DNA from: Actinomycetota bacterium
Lineage (GTDB): Bacteria > Actinomycetota > Actinomycetes > S36-B12 > FW305-bin1
Direction of reading: 5' to 3'
DNA length: 64,000 nucleotides
NCBI GenBank assembly: GCA_004297305.1
Contig: SCTR01000006.1
Coordinates: 318,129-382,128 of the forward strand
The translations under genes were made by a program, and so were the position numbers. The notes under the pieces were generated by a model that saw nothing but the letters and a program-made list of their open reading frames with translations, did no database searches and was not told where the DNA came from. Below, one piece after another: positions 4,676 to 63,565 of the stretch (the stretch's first letter is position 1; each line of letters begins with the position of its first letter).

Positions 4676-5575
4676 CTAGCCGACCGAATCGCCTGCGGCG
4701 GCGGTGATCCGGGAATTCATGTGCACCAGCAGGTCCGCGCTGCTGGTCGGGACCACCCCGCCGGCCGTCGAGGTGATCTCGTCGATGTGATCGGCGACCG
4801 ACTCCGGGGTGAGCGGCGTACCGCCGGAGGACCAGCCGTCGGCGACCCCCAGATAGATCCGGCCGACGAACGTCGCACCGACCCGGAAGCACTGCCCGCC
4901 CACCGCGCACTCGTCGGATGCCAGGTAGCCGACCAGCGCTGCGACGTTGTCCGGTGTCGCCAGTTCGACCGGGATGGGGGCGGTCGGCACCCTCGGCCGG
5001 GTCGCGGCCAACGGGGCGATGACGTTCACCTTGATGTCCACGCCCTGCTGCACGGTCTCCAGATGCATGCTCGCAGCCAGGCCGAGCAGGCCGGCCTTCG
5101 CGCCGCCGTACGTCGGCACCCTCGCGTCACCGAAGATCCCTGCTGACGAGGTCAGCACGATCCGGCCACGACCGTTCGCTGCCATCCAGCGCCACGCCGG
5201 CTGTCCCACGTAGTAGGCGGCGCAGAAGTGCACCGCGAGCAGCCGCGTCAACTGATCGGCCGGCACCTGCCCGAACGGCGCGTGTTCGACGACGCCAGCG
5301 TTGTGGACGACGATGTCGGCGGACCCGAACTCCGCGATGACCGCTGCGACCAGGTCCTCGCCACCGGTCTCGGAGGCGATGTCATGAGTGGAGACGAGCG
5401 CCTGCCCGCCGGCAGCGACGATCTCGTCGACCACGGAACCGGCTGCGGCAGCGTCGATGTCGTTGACGACGACGGCTGCGCCGCGCGACGCCAGCAGGAG
5501 GGCATGGGCCCGGCCGATGCCACGGCCCGCTCCGGTCACGACAGCGGCTCTGCCGCGCAAGGACAACTCAGCCAT
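4676..5575 (-). CDS. SDR family NAD(P)-dependent oxidoreductase
   Basis: A classical short-chain dehydrogenase: the Rossmann motif VTGAGRGIG lies at residues 12-20, VHNAG follows the beta-4 strand, and the active site is Ser (LTSSAG) with YGGAK. At 300 residues it is about 45 longer than a minimal SDR. The extension is at the C-terminus, after GGQCFRVGATFVGRIYLG, and resembles the tail seen in hydroxysteroid/acyl-CoA type SDRs. The ATG at 5575 lies inside the end of the amidohydrolase gene (8-base overlap), so the two are cotranscribed and probably coupled. Substrate unknown. Confidence 0.82.
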   Translation of the reverse strand: MAELSLRGRAAVVTGAGRGIGRAHALLLASRGAAVVVNDIDAAAAGSVVDEIVAAGGQALVSTHDIASETGGEDLVAAVIAEFGSADIVVHNAGVVEHAPFGQVPADQLTRLLAVHFCAAYYVGQPAWRWMAANGRGRIVLTSSAGIFGDARVPTYGGAKAGLLGLAASMHLETVQQGVDIKVNVIAPLAATRPRVPTAPIPVELATPDNVAALVGYLASDECAVGGQCFRVGATFVGRIYLGVADGWSSGGTPLTPESVADHIDEITSTAGGVVPTSSADLLVHMNSRITAAAGDSVG

Positions 5576-41222: not shown

Positions 41223-41583
41223 CACCGCGGCCGTCAGCCCCGCGATGCCGGCAGGTCGTCACTTCGCCGTGCCACCGCAAAGGTCCACAAGCCCGTCCCG
41301 TTGTCAGCCCTAGCGGTGGCACGGCGGGCTGTGGACGGCCGTCACCGTAACCAACCGAGGTTGGCGATGATCCGGCGGTGCCAACACCGCCGCTGACCGC
41401 CCCTCGTCCGCATTCGGCCCCCTGTTCGCGCCCTGCCCTGCTGCCAAACAGCCGTCCGCGGCTCACCGCGCCGCCAAGCCTCAGTTCCCGTCCGACGCGG
41501 TCCACCGCGCCCAAGTCACTCGGCAACCACCGAAACTCACCGCCCTGCAACAAGCCTGGGCTCGATGCGGGCTGCGGACCATC
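41223..41583. other. gene-free stretch between zwf and the AbiEi/DUF559 gene
   Basis: About 360 bases with no convincing open frame. It contains copy A of the 56-bp palindromic element (41272-41327). The region from 41390 on is rich in C-runs and has no obvious promoter hexamers. A 5' leader or operator for the following gene must lie here. Confidence 0.5.
41272..41327. repeat. 56-bp palindromic element, copy A
   Basis: Begins CCACCGCAAAGG and ends GCGGTGGCACGGCGG. With six extra bases on the left the arms are GCCGTGCCACCGC (41266-41278) and GCGGTGGCACGGC (41313-41325), a perfect 13-bp stem. It is the same length as copy B (42768-42823) and matches it at roughly 48 of 56 positions, in the same orientation. 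It lies 256 bases upstream of the AbiEi/DUF559 gene. Confidence 0.85.
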
Positions 41584-42783
41584 GTGAGCGGCGACTGGCG
41601 CGGCCAGCAGATCTCGCCGGGCCTGGCAAATGAAGCTCCCGCGCCCGACAAGGCCTCCTCCGCCGCGCGGCGAGGGCGGGCCGGCACCGCGGCGACCGCC
41701 GCAATCCTGCGGGACCGCTTCGGTCCCGAGCCGTTCACGACCGCCGAAGCGTTGGCCACGGTATCCCGCGGTCGATGGCGGGCAGCCGTGGCCGCCGGGA
41801 GGGTCGACCGGGTGCGGCGCGGCCACTGGATTGTTTCGAAGGTTCCCGCCGTGCCACCGCACGGGCTGCTACTAGCCGATTCCGACGAACCGTTGCGGTG
41901 GCATGGCGGACAGCAGACTGTCACGGTACGGAGGGTCGCCCTGGAGGTAGCCCGATTCGCGGCGGACGGTGTCCCGGCGACCGCCGCCCTCGAGACAGCG
42001 GCGCACCTGCACGGGATTCCCACCGTGGGCCACGACCACGCTGGCGCCAATCGCGTCACGTTGTTCGTGCCCCGACATGCCGACGTACGGCGTGGTGCGC
42101 GGTCCGACCTGCTGGTGCGGGCCACGAATCTCCCGCGGCGACAGCGCGATACCCGCCTGGGTGTGCCGACGACGTCGTTGTTGCGCACCGCCGTCGATCT
42201 CGCTCGCGGCCAGCCCCTGCCCTCGGCACTGGTACCGCTGGATGCTGCACTACGGCAATGGATCCTGCGGCTTTCCGACAGCCAGAGGGGGAGCGCCAAT
42301 TCGGCGCTCGAGGCCGCGTCCGTGCCGCGGGCCCGGGCCACGGACGAGCTGGCGGCCATCATTGCGACGATGGCCCGACTGCCGGGCATCCGTGCTGTAC
42401 GAAGGGCCGCCGAGGACGTCGATCCGAAGGCTGAGACTCCCCTGGAATCCCTGTCGCGCGGCAGGTTTCTCGCGGCTGGCTTGCCACGCCCTGTGGCGCA
42501 GCTCGCCGTCCACGGCGACGACGGCCGCACCTACCGCTCAGATCTCGGCTGGCCGCAATACCGGGTGCTCGGCGAGGCGGACGGCGCGCTCAAGTACGTC
42601 GATCGAGCAGATCTGTTGCGCGAGAAGGAACGCGAGGACTCCCTGCGCCGCGCCGGCTGGATCGTCGTTCGCTGGACATGGGACGAGATTTTGCGTCGCC
42701 CTGAGGTCGTCGTCCGCCGCATCCTCGCGGCGTTGAACAGCTACCTGACGGCACAGCCCTTGCGGAGCCACCGCAAGGGCTGA
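41584..42783 (+). CDS. AbiEi-type antitoxin domain fused to a DUF559/Vsr-like endonuclease domain
   Basis: A 399-residue protein. Residues 38-90 (ILRDRFGPEPFTTAEALATV then RWRAAVAAGRVDRVRRGHW) form an AbiEi-like winged helix; the middle resembles the AbiEi C-terminal region (LGVPTTSLLRTAVDLARG). The last 110 residues match the DUF559 endonuclease fold: ESLSRGRFLAAGLPRPVAQ, YRSDLGWPQYRVLGEADGA with the presumed Asp and Glu metal ligands, then REKEREDSLRRAGW and VVRWTWDEIL. This domain pair is frequent in actinobacteria; its role (defence, repair or mobile-element linked) is unknown. GTG 41584 is the chosen start. Its last codons (SHRKG, stop) lie inside palindromic element copy B, and an element-like palindrome lies inside the coding region. 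Confidence 0.78.
   Translation: MSGDWRGQQISPGLANEAPAPDKASSAARRGRAGTAATAAILRDRFGPEPFTTAEALATVSRGRWRAAVAAGRVDRVRRGHWIVSKVPAVPPHGLLLADSDEPLRWHGGQQTVTVRRVALEVARFAADGVPATAALETAAHLHGIPTVGHDHAGANRVTLFVPRHADVRRGARSDLLVRATNLPRRQRDTRLGVPTTSLLRTAVDLARGQPLPSALVPLDAALRQWILRLSDSQRGSANSALEAASVPRARATDELAAIIATMARLPGIRAVRRAAEDVDPKAETPLESLSRGRFLAAGLPRPVAQLAVHGDDGRTYRSDLGWPQYRVLGEADGALKYVDRADLLREKEREDSLRRAGWIVVRWTWDEILRRPEVVVRRILAALNSYLTAQPLRSHRKG
41854..41909. repeat. 56-bp palindromic element-like segment inside the AbiEi/DUF559 gene
   Basis: Left arm CCGCCGTGCCACCGCA (41846-41861), right arm TGCGGTGGCATGGCGG (41894-41909), complementary at 15 of 16 positions. From CCACCGC to GGCGG it is exactly 56 bases, as in copies A, B and C; the middle differs. 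It encodes VPPHGLLLADSDEPLRWHGG of the protein. Confidence 0.7.
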
Positions 42784-42823
42784 CAAGCCGGTCTCGTTGT
42801 GAGCCCTTGCGGTGGCACGGCGG
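42755..42823. repeat. 56-bp palindromic element, copy B, with an extra arm
   Basis: The element proper (42768-42823) has a perfect 14-bp stem CCACCGCAAGGGCT / AGCCCTTGCGGTGG. A further arm AGCCCTTGCGG (42755-42765) precedes it, so the middle arm (42771-42781) can pair either backward (11 bp, loop of 5) or forward (14 bp). The stop codon of the AbiEi/DUF559 gene is at 42781-42783, within the first arm pair. Could act as a terminator between this gene and convergent purD. Confidence 0.85.
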
Positions 42824-58148: not shown

Positions 58149-58198
58149 GGCCGGAACCGTACGGGGCACCGGCTGGCCGCGCCGTACCCTTGCCGCTC

Positions 58199-59371
58199 AT
58201 GGTCGGCCGGTCGCCCGAACTCGTCGCACGGATGCTGCCGCACGCCACCAGCGTCTTCGGGCAGATGTCGGCCCTCGCCGCGCGAACCGGAGCCATCAAC
58301 CTCGGCCAGGGATACCCCGACACCGACGGTCCCGACGAGCTGAAAGCCATTGCCTGCCAGGCGATCAGCGACGGCCGCGGCAACCAGTACCCGCCGGCGC
58401 ACGGGCTGCCGCAGCTCCGGGACGCCATCGCGGCCCACCAGCAGCGGTGGTACGGGCTGTCGGTCGACCCCGCCGACGGTGTCGTCGTCGGAACCGGCGC
58501 GTCGGAGATCCTCGCGGCCGCGCTGCTCGCGCTGCTGGAACCCGGCGACGAGGTGCTCGTCTTCGAGCCGTGGTTCGACATCTACGCGGCGGGCATCGCG
58601 CTGGCCGGCGGCGTACGGGTGTCCGTCCCGCTGGTCGCGCCGGCGTTCCGGCCCGATCTGGCTGCGTTGCGGGCGGCCGTGACCGCGCGCACCCGGCTCA
58701 TCCTGCTGAACTCGCCCCACAACCCGACGGGGGTGGTGTTCACCGCGGCCGAGTTGACGGAGATCGCCCGGATCGCCGTCGACCACGACCTGCTCGTCGT
58801 CAGCGACGAGGCCTACGAACACCTGTGGTTCGACGAGCACCGCCATATCCCGATCGCGACGTTGCCCGGCATGGCCGAGCGGACGCTGACGGTCGGCAGC
58901 GGCGGCAAGTCGTTCTCGTTCACCGGATGGAAGGTCGGTTGGGGCAGCGGCCCGGCCGACCTGGTCGGCGCCGTACGGGTCGTACGCCAGCACCTGTCGT
59001 ATGTCAGCGGCGGCCCGTTCCAGTGGGCCATGGCCGCGGGGCTGGAACTGCCGGACAGCTATTTCGAGAATCTGCGCGCCTCGTTGCAGTCCCGCCGAGA
59101 CCTGTTCTGCGACGGGCTGACCGGGCTGGGGCTGCCCGTCGAACAACCGCAGGGGACGTATTTCGTGACGACCGACGTCCGGCCGCTCGGGTACGACGAC
59201 GGCGTGGCCTTCTGCGACGAGCTGCCCGAGCGCGCCGGCGTGGCGGCCATCCCGGTGCGAGTGCTCTGCGACGATCCCGAGGTCGCCGCGACCACGGTGC
59301 GCTGGACGTTCTGCAAACGGCCGGAGGTGCTCACGACCGCGCTGGACCGGCTCCGCGCCGCCTTCGGCTGA
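58199..59371 (+). CDS. dapC: pyridoxal-phosphate aminotransferase, DapC-like
   Basis: A 390-residue fold-type I aminotransferase. INLGQGYPDTDGPDELK is the start pattern, GTGASEILAAALLAL binds PLP, HNPTGVVFTAAELTEIA and SDEAYEHLWF follow, and the Schiff-base Lys is in SGGKSFSFTGWKVGWGSG. It matches the mycobacterial N-succinyldiaminopimelate aminotransferase of the lysine/peptidoglycan pathway well, but close homologues also act on methionine or kynurenine. Start ATG 58199. It ends 21 bases before the palindromic element copy C. Confidence 0.8.
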   Translation: MVGRSPELVARMLPHATSVFGQMSALAARTGAINLGQGYPDTDGPDELKAIACQAISDGRGNQYPPAHGLPQLRDAIAAHQQRWYGLSVDPADGVVVGTGASEILAAALLALLEPGDEVLVFEPWFDIYAAGIALAGGVRVSVPLVAPAFRPDLAALRAAVTARTRLILLNSPHNPTGVVFTAAELTEIARIAVDHDLLVVSDEAYEHLWFDEHRHIPIATLPGMAERTLTVGSGGKSFSFTGWKVGWGSGPADLVGAVRVVRQHLSYVSGGPFQWAMAAGLELPDSYFENLRASLQSRRDLFCDGLTGLGLPVEQPQGTYFVTTDVRPLGYDDGVAFCDELPERAGVAAIPVRVLCDDPEVAATTVRWTFCKRPEVLTTALDRLRAAFG

Positions 59372-59392
59372 CGCTGGCACACCCGCGCGGTG

Positions 59393-59448
59393 CCACCGCA
59401 ACGGCGGCCAACGGCACCCGGTTGCCGGCCCTTGCGGTGGCTTCGCGG
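59393..59448. repeat. 56-bp palindromic element, copy C
   Basis: Arms GCCACCGCAA (59392-59401) and TTGCGGTGGC (59432-59441) form a 10-bp stem. From CCACCGC to CGCGG it is 56 bases, like copies A and B; the inside differs (CGGCGGCCAACGGC...GTTGCCGGCCC). Its right end runs into the left 72-bp direct repeat. It lies 150 bases before the AbiEi gene and after dapC. Confidence 0.8.
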
Positions 59449-59510
59449 TGACGTTCAGGCCGCGCGGGTCACGGTGAGGCCGGCGCTGGTGCCGTCGGGG
59501 CCCGGATCGG
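59439..59510. repeat. left 72-bp direct repeat flanking the AbiE module (clpB 3'-end copy)
   Basis: It starts GGCTTCGCGGTGACGTTCAG and ends GGCCCGGATCGG. It is identical to 60955-61026 except for C instead of G at 59452. In the right copy this sequence holds the last codons of clpB on the minus strand (stop at 60971). So this left copy is a stranded clpB tail: its minus-strand frame reads [12 protein letters not shown] then stop, without the rest of clpB. Confidence 0.93.
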
Positions 59511-59594
59511 GCGACCGTCGGGACGTCGCCTGCGCCGCACTGGCGGGCGTCTTGGCGTTGGTCACGACACTACTGTTTTCGGTATGGTTGTGAC
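59511..59594 (+). promoter_or_regulatory. probable leaderless promoter and operator of the AbiE operon
   Basis: TATGGT (59583-59588) fits a -10 TANNNT box and ends 6 bases before the ATG of AbiEi. There is no ribosome-binding site, so a leaderless mRNA is likely. TTGGTC at 59558 is a weak -35 candidate. The near-perfect inverted repeat GTCACGAC (59561-59568) / GTTGTGAC (59587-59594) covers the promoter. AbiEi antitoxins bind inverted repeats in their own promoter, so this is a good autoregulatory operator. Confidence 0.55.
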
Positions 59595-60137
59595 ATGGCT
59601 GCCCACGTGAAGTACCGAACGATCGTGCGCGAGATCGCGCTCGATCACCATGGCTACGTCACGACGAAGGCGGCCGCCGAGGCCGGGGTCCCAGCGGTGG
59701 AACTGCCCAAGCTTGCCGCCCGGGGCGGTCTGGACAACGTCTCGTACGGGCTGTACCGGATGCCCGACATTCCGCCGACGGCATATGACCAGTTCGCGGA
59801 GGCGCTTCTGCGAGCGGGCGAGGGGGCTTACCTTCATGGGGAGTCGGTGCTCGCTCTTCTCGGCCTGGCCGACGTCAACCCTCGACGGATCAAGGTGGCC
59901 GTCCGTCGACGCGCCCGCCCCAAGCTGCCGCCGTTCGTCGAACTGACCCGCGTCAAAGACGAGGCCCGAACCACGCTCTACGAGGGCCTGGCGGCGCAAT
60001 CAGTGGCCGACTCCATCCTTGAGTGCCGCGGCCGCATTGAGACCGAGCGTCTGCTGGACGCCGCCAAACAGGCTCGTAGCAGCGGACTGCTGACCACGAC
60101 GGAATGGCAGCACGTACGAAAGGAACTTCGGTCGTGA
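59595..60137 (+). CDS. AbiEi-family antitoxin
   Basis: A 180-residue protein: winged-helix start KYRTIVREIALDHHGYVTTKAAAEAGVPAVELPKLAARGGLDNVSYGLYRMPDIPPTAYDQFAEALLRAG, then the AbiEi C-terminal part GAYLHGESVLALLGLADVNPRRIKVAV and LYEGLAAQSVADSIL. AbiEi proteins repress their own operon and block the AbiEii toxin (type IV toxin-antitoxin/phage abortive infection). Its stop overlaps the toxin GTG (GTGA, 60134-60137). The local codon use is visibly less GC-rich than the neighbours. The start is leaderless. Confidence 0.85.
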   Translation: MAAHVKYRTIVREIALDHHGYVTTKAAAEAGVPAVELPKLAARGGLDNVSYGLYRMPDIPPTAYDQFAEALLRAGEGAYLHGESVLALLGLADVNPRRIKVAVRRRARPKLPPFVELTRVKDEARTTLYEGLAAQSVADSILECRGRIETERLLDAAKQARSSGLLTTTEWQHVRKELRS

Positions 60138-60967
60138 GCTACATCGACGCGCCGACGAATGTGCGCTCGCTGGAGCAGCGTATCCGCAACCTCGCGGGTA
60201 GCGACGGCGTTGCCCTGCGGCGTCGAGTCGGAATGGCTCTTGTTGTGGTCAGCCAGATGGTGCCCGAGGGCGCGATCAAGGGCGGCAGCGCCATGGCCCT
60301 GCGCTACGGGCGCGAGACCCGCTTCACCCGTGATCTCGACGCTGCGCGAGTTCAGCCACTCGCCAGATATCGCAGCGACTTCGAGGACTCACTGGCGGCA
60401 GGGTGGGCGGGGTTCACCGGGCGGCTGGTGGAGAAGGCTGCACCGCGCCCAACCGCCGTGCCGACGGCCTACCTCATGCAACCATTCGAGGTGAAGCTGG
60501 ACTATCTGGGCAGGCCGTGGTGCACGGTGAAGTTCGAGCTCGGCTACAACGAGATTGGTGATGCCGACGAACCCGAGTATCAGCTTGCTTCCGACTTGGT
60601 CGGACTCTTCACCGAGGTTGGCCTCGAGATACCGAGACCGGTACCGGTCCTGCGGGCCGACCATCAAATCGCGCAGAAACTTCATGCTGTCTCAAGCGAG
60701 CGAAGTGAACGTGCGCGAGACCTGGTTGACCTTCAACTCCTCGATCGAGGCGACGATCTCGACCTGACGCAGGTCGACGCGATCTGTGTCCGACTCTTTG
60801 CCTACCGACGTCAGCAGACATGGCCGCCCACAGTCGTCGTCGGCAACCAGTGGGACACGCTCTATGCACAGGCGGCCGACGGCCTCGACGTCCTCCCAAC
60901 GGTCGACGCTGCCGTTGAGTGGGTCAACGAGTTTGTCCGACGTATTGCGGCGGCGGCTTCGCGGTGA
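60134..60967 (+). CDS. AbiEii/AbiGii-family nucleotidyltransferase toxin
   Basis: A 277-residue nucleotidyltransferase. GGS at 50-52 and DLD at 67-69 (TRDLDAA) are the two-part catalytic motif; MQPFEVKLDYLG and HQIAQKLHAVSSER, ARDLVDLQLL fit the other motifs of AbiEii toxins that block growth by modifying tRNA or similar. Start GTG 60134 overlaps the antitoxin stop. The final codons (A-S-R-stop) lie in the right 72-bp repeat, 3 bases before the stop of convergent clpB. Codon use is less GC-rich than clpB, a sign of transfer. Confidence 0.85.
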   Translation: MSYIDAPTNVRSLEQRIRNLAGSDGVALRRRVGMALVVVSQMVPEGAIKGGSAMALRYGRETRFTRDLDAARVQPLARYRSDFEDSLAAGWAGFTGRLVEKAAPRPTAVPTAYLMQPFEVKLDYLGRPWCTVKFELGYNEIGDADEPEYQLASDLVGLFTEVGLEIPRPVPVLRADHQIAQKLHAVSSERSERARDLVDLQLLDRGDDLDLTQVDAICVRLFAYRRQQTWPPTVVVGNQWDTLYAQAADGLDVLPTVDAAVEWVNEFVRRIAAAASR

Positions 60968-61026
60968 GGTTCAGGCCGCGCGGGTCACGGTGAGGCCGGC
61001 GCTGGTGCCGTCGGGGCCCGGATCGG
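60955..61026. repeat. right 72-bp direct repeat, native clpB 3' end
   Basis: Same sequence as 59439-59510 with one change (G at 60968). It supplies the stop codon of the AbiEii toxin on the plus strand and the last 18 codons and stop of clpB on the minus strand. The two copies start 1516 bases apart and bracket the AbiE pair exactly. Confidence 0.93.
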
Positions 61027-63565
61027 CGACATCGACCACGACGGTGTCGCCGTCGAGCACCTCGGCGGCCAGGATCGCCCGCGCCAACGGGTCGCCCACC
61101 GCCGACTGGACCAGTCGACGCAGCGGCCGGGCGCCGTACACCGGGTCGAACCCCTGCAGTGCCAGCCAGTCCTTGGCCGGCTGCGACACCTGCAGCGTCA
61201 GCCGACGGTCGGCCAAACGGGCGGCCATGAGGTCCAGCTGCAGGTCGACGATGCGCGTGAGTTCGGCGGATCCCAGCGGATGGAACAGCACGACCTCGTC
61301 GAGCCGGTTGAGGAACTCCGGCTTGAACGACGACCGGACCGTCGCCATCACCGCCTCCCGCTTCTCGTGTTCGCCGAGCAAGGGATCGGCCAGGTACGCC
61401 GAACCGAGGTTCGACGTCAGGACCAGGATCGTGTTGCGGAAGTCCACGGTACGACCCTGGCCGTCGGTGAGCCGCCCGTCGTCGAGCACCTGCAGCAGGA
61501 TGTCGAACACCTCGGGGTGCGCCTTCTCGACCTCGTCGAGCAGTACGACGGTGTAGGGCCGGCGGCGTACCGCCTCGGTGAGCTGACCGCCCTCCTCGTA
61601 GCCGACATACCCGGGCGGGGCACCGACGAGCCGGGCGACCGCGTGCTTCTCGCCGTACTCGCTCATGTCGATGCGGACCATCGCCCGATCGTCGTCGAAC
61701 AGGAACTGCGCCAACGCCTTGGCCAGTTCCGTCTTGCCGACGCCGGTCGGCCCGAGGAACAGGAACGACCCGGTCGGCCGATCCGGGTCGGCCACGCCGG
61801 CGCGGGCCCGGCGGACCGCGTCGGAGACGGCGCGGACGGCCTCGGCCTGCCCGACGACGCGCTCGCCCAGTGCCGCATCCATCCGCAACAACTTCGCGGT
61901 CTCGCCCTCCAGCAGCCTGCCGGCGGGGATCCCGGTCCAGGCGGCCACGACCTCGGCGACGTCGTCCGGACCGACCTCGTCGGAGACCATCGCCGCGCGA
62001 GCGTTGGTCTGCGACGACAGCGCCGCGAGCTCTCGTTCCAGCTCGGGGATCTCGGCGTACAGAATCCGGGACGCCTGCTCGAAGTCGCCATCCCGTTGCG
62101 CCCGTTCGGCAATCACGCGCAGCTCGTCGAGCCGGATCTTCACCTCGCCGACCCGATCCAGGCCTTCGCGTTCGGACTCCCAGCGCGCCCGCAACGCGGC
62201 GAGTTCCTCCCGGCGGTCGGCGAGGTCGGCGCGCAACCGCTCGAGCCGGGCCACCGACGCCGGATCGCTCTCCCGCCCCAGCGCGAGTTCCTCCATCATC
62301 AGGCGGTCGACGGTGCGCTGCAGTTCGTCGAGCTCGACCGGGGACGAGTCGATCTCCATCCGCAACCGGGACGCCGCCTCGTCCACGAGGTCGATCGCCT
62401 TGTCCGGCAGGAACCGTGCGGTGATGTAGCGGTCGGACAGCTGCGCGGCGGCGACCAGCGCGGCATCGGCGATGACGACCTTGTGGTGGGCCTCGTACTT
62501 CTCCTTCAGGCCACGCAGGATCGCCACGGTGTCCTCCACGGTCGGCTCGCCGACCAGGACCTGCTGGAAACGCCGTTCCAGCGCCGGGTCCTTCTCGATG
62601 CGCTCGCGGTACTCGTCCAGCGTGGTCGCCCCGACCATCCGCAACTCACCGCGGGCCAGCATTGGTTTGAGCATGTTGCCGGCATCCATGGCCGAATCGC
62701 CGGACGAACCGGCACCGACGACGGTGTGCAACTCGTCGATGAACGTCACGACCTGACCGTCGCTGCCCTTGATCTCCTCGAGGACCGCCTTGAGCCGCTC
62801 CTCGAACTCACCGCGGTACTTCGCCCCGGCGAGCATCGCGGCAAGATCCAGGGCGATCAGCCGCTTGCCGCGCAACGACAACGGGACATCGCCGGCGACG
62901 ATGCGCTGCGCGAGGCCTTCGACCACCGCGGTCTTGCCGACGCCCGGCTCACCGATGAGCACGGGGTTGTTCTTCGTCCGCCGGGACAGCACCTGCACGA
63001 CGCGCCGGATCTCGGCGTCGCGCCCGATCACCGGGTCGATGCGGCCTTCCCGGGCCCGGGCGGTGAGGTCCACGCCGTACTTCGCCAGCGCTTCGAACGT
63101 CCCCTCCGGCTCGGGGCTGGTCACCCGGGCCGAGCCGCGGACCTTGTCCAACGCGGCCAGCAGCGCCGTCGGCGTGGCGCCACGCGGCGTCAGCAGCTGC
63201 GCAGGAACCCCGTCGCGGGCCAGGCCGATGAGCAGATGCTCGGTCGACACGTAGTCGTCGCCCCGCTCGGTGGCCAGGTCCTGCGCGGCCTGCAGCGCCC
63301 GGAATGCGGTCTGCGCCAGTTGGGGTTGCGCGACCGCGGCACCGTGCGCACTGGGCAGCCGACCCAGCTCGGTACTGACCGCGGCCGCCAGGTCCGCAGC
63401 GTCGACTCCGACGTCGTCCAGCAGGGCCGCGGCGATGCCGTCCCGTTGCTCGACCAGCCCCGCGAGCAGATGGATCGGCTCGACGTGCGGATTGCCGGCC
63501 GTGGTCGCCAGCCGGACCGCGGCCGCCAGCGCCTCCTGGCTTCGAGTGGTGTAGTTCAGGTCCAC
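60971..63565 (-). CDS. clpB: ATP-dependent chaperone ClpB
   Basis: A Hsp100 disaggregase working with DnaK. The 864 residues have the Clp-N double repeat (1-145), first AAA+ module with Walker [14 protein letters not shown] and [12 protein letters not shown], a long coiled-coil middle domain ([29 protein letters not shown]), then the second module with [15 protein letters not shown] and [14 protein letters not shown]. The C-terminus [13 protein letters not shown] lies in the duplicated 72-bp segment. GTG 63565 starts [13 protein letters not shown] with GGGAGGGAA upstream. Lies 81 bases after hspR, so it may share the heat-shock operon. Confidence 0.97.

Follow-up and report, generated by a model that had tools for sequence, protein, structure and literature searches.

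AbiE is a type IV toxin-antitoxin system of phage abortive infection, in which the toxicity of AbiEii is neutralised by AbiEi. Homology-facilitated illegitimate recombination has been proposed as the source of the orphan 3' ends seen in T6SS effector loci and in Rhs loci (PMC5361080). Restriction-modification systems insert with target duplications of about 100 bp, as stated where PMC3874152 and PMC3031569 cite Nobusato 2000 and Furuta 2010. Further, an integrase-less element served by a trans-acting recombinase is termed a cis-mobilizable element (PMC5704250), and integrase-less islands are known at ssrA (PMC3146451). We rate the AbiE-in-clpB arrangement described here as a variant of such known kinds.

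As in the cis-mobilizable elements and the ssrA islands, a cargo without integrase is flanked here by a gene on one side and a direct copy of that gene's 3' end on the other, and flanking direct repeats that originate from the 3' end of a gene, a criterion for islands, were found in the window (the whole stretch of 64,000 nt analysed). The likeness to tRNA and tmRNA islands put forward in the original prediction is real in anatomy. On the other hand, the AbiE unit measures only ~1.4 kb, its protein-gene targets vary by locus and share no att core, and no helper element was seen. With the restriction-modification insertions of the above accounts the locus has in common a small addiction-type unit, the lack of a transposase and direct repeats of ~100 nt, but AbiE is a type IV toxin-antitoxin system, and where this could be tested one repeat copy is foreign and no duplicate of resident DNA, in contrast to the duplications described in those accounts. 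The T6SS effector and Rhs orphan ends (PMC5361080, PMC3240628) would be similar in having one homologous and one non-homologous side, and in a related case, genome G651, the old gene end appears likewise pushed downstream of the module. Their cargo, however, is an effector with its immunity partner belonging to that very locus, whereas AbiE is an unrelated unit behind other genes, the ends of which are preserved.

The features of the locus are collected in Table 1. Both proteins match the family profiles of AbiE type IV systems, and with an AbiEii nucleotidyltransferase and AbiEi in one operon the module is predicted to be such a toxin-antitoxin system. Compared with other AbiE systems the operon seems ordinary, save that the last codons of the toxin would be drawn from the target. 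The two genes are the only ones enclosed by the repeat copies, as originally predicted, and no integrase is present among the genes called and profile-searched there, which bears out another part of that prediction. The operon does not, however, lie exactly between the copies: the AbiEii stop codon (60965-60967) and the final codons before it lie inside the right repeat, so that the toxin gene overlaps the repeat.

Table 1. Features of the AbiE locus in the window, and gene 3' ends duplicated at AbiE units (a few of them longer-range cases)
Feature	Location	Strand	Repeat length	Basis or remark
dapC-like PLP-dependent aminotransferase gene, far side of insertion	58190..59371	+		NF005855 equivalog, 557 bits (cut-off 553)
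Dispersed palindromic repeat copy, between aminotransferase gene and orphan clpB tail	59386..59447	.		inverted repeat; similar copies elsewhere in the genome; strong hairpin, z -2.5
Left (orphan) clpB 3' end copy with 21 nt of 3' flank	59434..59510	-		75/77 to 60950-61026; contiguous with the complete palindrome
AbiE promoter/operator region (putative)	59557..59594	+		palindrome gtcacgac...gttgtgac; left edge of homology among AbiE relatives
AbiEi antitoxin / transcription regulator, 180 aa	59595..60137	+		PADLOC AbiEi, E 3e-59; Pfam AbiEi_4, 23.7 bits, slightly below the 25-bit cut-off
AbiEii nucleotidyltransferase toxin, 287 aa counted from the first start	60104..60967	+		Pfam AbiEii, 72 bits (cut-off 22.5); PADLOC AbiEii, E 2.3e-115
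Right repeat copy, completing clpB and ending AbiEii	60950..61026	-		repeat and gene layout
clpB, intact, 864 aa, 3' end toward the module	60971..63565	-		TIGR03346 (ClpB equivalog), 1265 bits (cut-off 1232)
clpB 3' end	window		77 nt
ECF sigma factor 3' end	L032, Corynebacterium		58 nt
DpiA-like response regulator 3' end	L092 (genome G651)		243 nt
Cation-efflux gene 3' end	L093		about 270 nt
Membrane-transport gene 3' end	L094		77 nt
tRNA-His 3' end	L096		42 nt
tRNA-Ala 3' end	L114		134 nt
nadD-like gene 3' end	L115		62 nt

In the repeat search the two copies aligned over 77 nt with 75/77 identical positions and a spacing of 1516, or over 82 nt at 96.3% when one gap was allowed; the near-identical 72 nt repeat first noticed around AbiE proved to be the core of this alignment. 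Each copy consists of the last 56 nt of clpB including the stop codon, along with 21 nt of 3' flank. The clpB nucleotides are identical between the copies (56/56), both mismatches falling outside the gene. Across the 2.68 Mb assembly these two are the sole copies of the repeat, and its score of 71 greatly exceeds both the 99.9% level of a cross-locus null, 21, and the 99% level of the shifted-window controls, 16. ClpB C-terminal matches at E <= 1e-60 were found in none of the other searched genomes of the order; judged at this limit only, the clpB of the window may be unusual for its order. The gene on the other side had been labelled dapC, and it is dapC-like, but it matched the model for a PLP-dependent aminotransferase and scored under the cut-off of the DapC_direct model.

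A palindromic repeat family, CGCGGTGCCACCGCAA...TTGCGGTGGCACCGCG, is dispersed over the genome, and one complete copy runs unbroken into the left repeat, its right arm overlapping the first 14 nt. The right repeat holds just this 14-nt palindrome end, preceded by AbiEii codons. Because the palindrome is complete at the left copy and cut off by AbiEii at the right, we infer that the left clpB end is the native one, i.e. that aminotransferase gene, palindrome and clpB end would represent the original arrangement, with the unit and a second clpB end placed inside clpB. The left copy is a clpB tail without its gene, as in the original prediction, and the right copy is the end of the working clpB. 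Two other copies of the palindrome family (41265-41333 and 42750-42822) flank a 399-aa ORF (41584-42783).

A scan of the genome collection gave 11 close AbiEii relatives at 73-81% identity, found in Aeromicrobium, Agromyces, Propioniciclava, Rothia, Metallococcus, Corynebacterium, Propionicicella, Gordonia, Knoellia and two metagenome bins. Their presence in such scattered actinobacterial genera shows horizontal spread. The DNA homology of these relatives to the window starts at 59557-59563, at the palindromic promoter, the palindrome being conserved in the upstream sequences inspected, and ends by ~60957 at the end of AbiEii, where it coincides with the start of the right repeat. With homology limited in this way, scattered genera and differing flanks, the unit appears to be the bare operon. 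On the AbiEii side the junction in the window lies at an 8-nt near-match, GCGGYGGC. As most relatives stop about a codon earlier than the AbiEii of the window, the final codons and the stop of the latter probably derive from the clpB flank, joined at this short near-match. Carriage of the unit by a phage or plasmid was considered and rejected, since no close AbiEii relative was found in the viral contigs or phage records, and the plasmid relatives were distant ones alone, below 60% identity.

To see how often AbiE is found between such repeats we used 48 AbiE units from the wider family in actinobacteria, each with its neighbouring DNA, and scored direct repeats shared by the 500 nt upstream of AbiEi and the 500 nt downstream of AbiEii, a score of at least 30 being counted as strong. 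A strong, locus-specific close repeat was present at 9/48 units and in 5/1,245 shifted control windows of the same geometry from the same loci. The Fisher p-value is 1e-10; it should be noted that the control windows overlap, that 3/5 control hits come from one locus and that the threshold was chosen after the AbiE scores were known. The repeat sequences vary between loci, and several of them are the 3' end of the neighbouring gene (Table 1). Long-range repeats also seen at L110 (sulfatase copies), L121 and L126 were left out of the gene-end duplications. Where the target codes for a protein, the intact gene points toward the unit and its orphan tail is found at the far side, while the unit itself may run in either direction with respect to the target gene. 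Empty sites were sought for L032 and L094 and were not found.

No strong close repeat was seen at the other 39/48 units, which are located at other genes; these units may be of greater age, or may have arrived by another route. Relatives carrying AbiE without a repeat had been named beforehand as a finding that would count against insertion at the clpB end. As these units sit at other genes, they weaken the view of the repeat as essential to the unit, and leave untouched the arrival of the window copy by such an event. Insertion at the 3' end of a gene, the end being regenerated, as the original prediction had it, is on the other hand supported by the same pattern at other AbiE units and genes, and for one of these by an empty site.

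This empty site belongs to a case in which the polarity can be read, the response regulator gene of G651. In G468 the same regulator gene has one tail, followed by the downstream DNA of G651 at 97.8%. Two further genomes, G662 and G1347, have the same AbiE as G651 (91-95% in the aligned parts) after the same gene but differ from it on the downstream side. In sliding windows the working gene of G651 is ~97% like that of G468 over most of positions 51-450 and drops to 74-86% at about 451-600, while the orphan tail is 92-94% like G468 over 501-600. After the stop codon the working copy runs into the element, like G1347, and the orphan into native DNA, like G468. From this pattern, in which junction positions are accurate to about 40 nt, the working gene end of G651 is seen to be foreign and the native end displaced, so the incoming DNA brought its own gene end. 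The two G651 copies differ at 2/5/20 sites in codon positions 1/2/3 (p 2e-5) and those of G830 at 8/8/22 (p 0.002), and as the differences fall mostly at third positions, both ends seem once to have been coding. Over about 160 nt in their middle the G651 copies are identical, presumably by later gene conversion. Other cargo at such a site, which had been suggested for the clpB position, was seen at the G651-type site: G816 has a PAP2-family phosphatase gene (L163 3804-4493) where G651 has AbiE, but no second copy of the tail. The G651 data fit homology-facilitated illegitimate recombination, in which gene end and AbiE were joined by homology within the gene, and the other side, just past AbiEii, was attached non-homologously to the native gene end. 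They fit site-specific integration by a trans-acting recombinase as well. We rejected the integration of a circle through a crossover located centrally or 3' in the shared tail, as it would leave 451-600 of the working gene native; a circle crossover right where the tail begins is possible.

We suggest a similar course of events for the window, where the ~1.5-kb AbiE unit would have inserted within the last ~18 codons of clpB. The incoming DNA would have been an AbiE operon with a clpB-type gene end attached. On that side, pairing with the resident clpB would have allowed homologous recombination, whereas the opposite end of the fragment would have been linked, with no homology, to a point directly in front of the resident gene end. 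By such a one-sided, homology-guided insertion the original clpB end would be shifted left, beside the native palindrome, and the second end would restore clpB at the right and close the AbiEii frame. We give this explanation of the window about an even chance of being right. It is favoured over an integrase acting in trans and over a long target duplication, and we infer that the clpB case took the same route as G651 with no integrase involved. Since all clpB nucleotides of the repeat are identical between the copies, nothing in them shows whether the second end came from a donor or was duplicated from resident DNA. Further points against the one-sided route are that it requires a donor with AbiE already beside clpB, that in G651 it requires the later gene conversion, that the tRNA loci L096 and L114 resemble integrase islands, and that most of the sampled units have no strong close repeat.

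These tRNA loci bear on the next explanation, a mini-island of the cis-mobilizable kind: AbiE would lie between attL and attR, a recombinase encoded elsewhere or lost would target gene 3' ends, and the element would carry the replacement end. The targets are indeed gene 3' ends, tRNA-His and tRNA-Ala among them, and the polarity of G651, with a foreign working end and a native orphan, is what site-specific integration is expected to give. At L096 a second tRNA-end copy of 28 nt lies further out in reverse orientation (5251-5278), like an island accretion and suggesting stacked islands. At L117 the C-terminal fragment of a tyrosine integrase (1715-1966; PF00589, 26.4 bits with a cut-off of 27.1, E 6.6e-6) lies directly beside AbiE, both between perfect 38-nt repeats. 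These cases speak for a trans-recombinase route at some sites at least. Yet neither the window nor the other short units inspected showed an integrase between the repeats, no two protein-coding targets are the same gene, the repeats range from 58 to about 270 nt without a common core, and AbiE can be oriented either way relative to its target. For the clpB site we regard this as a rather unlikely account. Apart from this, tRNA-His adjoins AbiE in two genomes (L027 6050-6125 and L096 9627-9702).

Alternatively, ~77 nt of resident DNA might have been doubled as the AbiE DNA joined a staggered break. The perfect identity of the clpB coding part between the copies would follow from this, variable repeat lengths and both orientations are compatible with it, and the restriction-modification insertions with ~100 bp duplications, as reported in PMC3874152 and PMC3031569, offer a precedent. 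But a duplication of resident DNA does not yield the third-position differences in G651 and G830, nor the native orphan of G651, and does not by itself explain the frequent targeting of gene ends, though selection for intact genes could. Such a duplication would be enough for the clpB case; it fails for G651 and probably also for G830. As sole model for the whole class it was dropped, on account of the third-position differences and the foreign working end of G651, and for the window we consider it distinctly unlikely. Finally, a local duplication of the clpB end independent of AbiE, or an assembly artefact, is highly improbable: a few unrelated repeats of similar size do occur in the controls (5/1245), but the repeats coincide exactly with the edges of the AbiE unit, here and at other loci, and each copy has different flanks and leaves the reading frames intact.

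Returning to the one-sided, homology-guided insertion, we tentatively extend it to a wider proposal, which we hold to be doubtful at present: AbiE, and perhaps other small addiction modules, could be transposase-free mobile units that use the 3' end of a neighbouring gene as homing arm. The arm would find the same gene in a new host and replace its end, keeping the gene intact, with the resident end orphaned on the far side of the unit. Transfer of toxin-antitoxin units from one bacterium to another goes far beyond what the missing transposase would suggest, and the recurrent gene-end duplication, the empty site and, in one case, the foreign gene end point to a concrete route by which the end of a neighbouring gene may carry AbiE to a safe place. 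An orphan gene tail beyond a small module could then serve as a signature of recent arrivals of defence genes, for which the mobile element need not be known.

AbiE units were also seen closely downstream of menB in Agromyces, Gordonia, Knoellia and the genome G688 (L026 4427, L034 4407, L035 3965 and L095 9044), which makes the 3' end of menB look like a landing place used more than once. In Knoellia a small ORF lies between menB and AbiE, and a flanking repeat was present in G688 alone, downstream of menB rather than within it. Many AbiE copies appear broken, with a frameshift, truncation, internal deletion or stop codon (L035, L033, L095, L072, L058 and L162), which suggests frequent loss after arrival. 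At L078 and L116 pieces of a second, partial AbiE lie upstream of the complete one.
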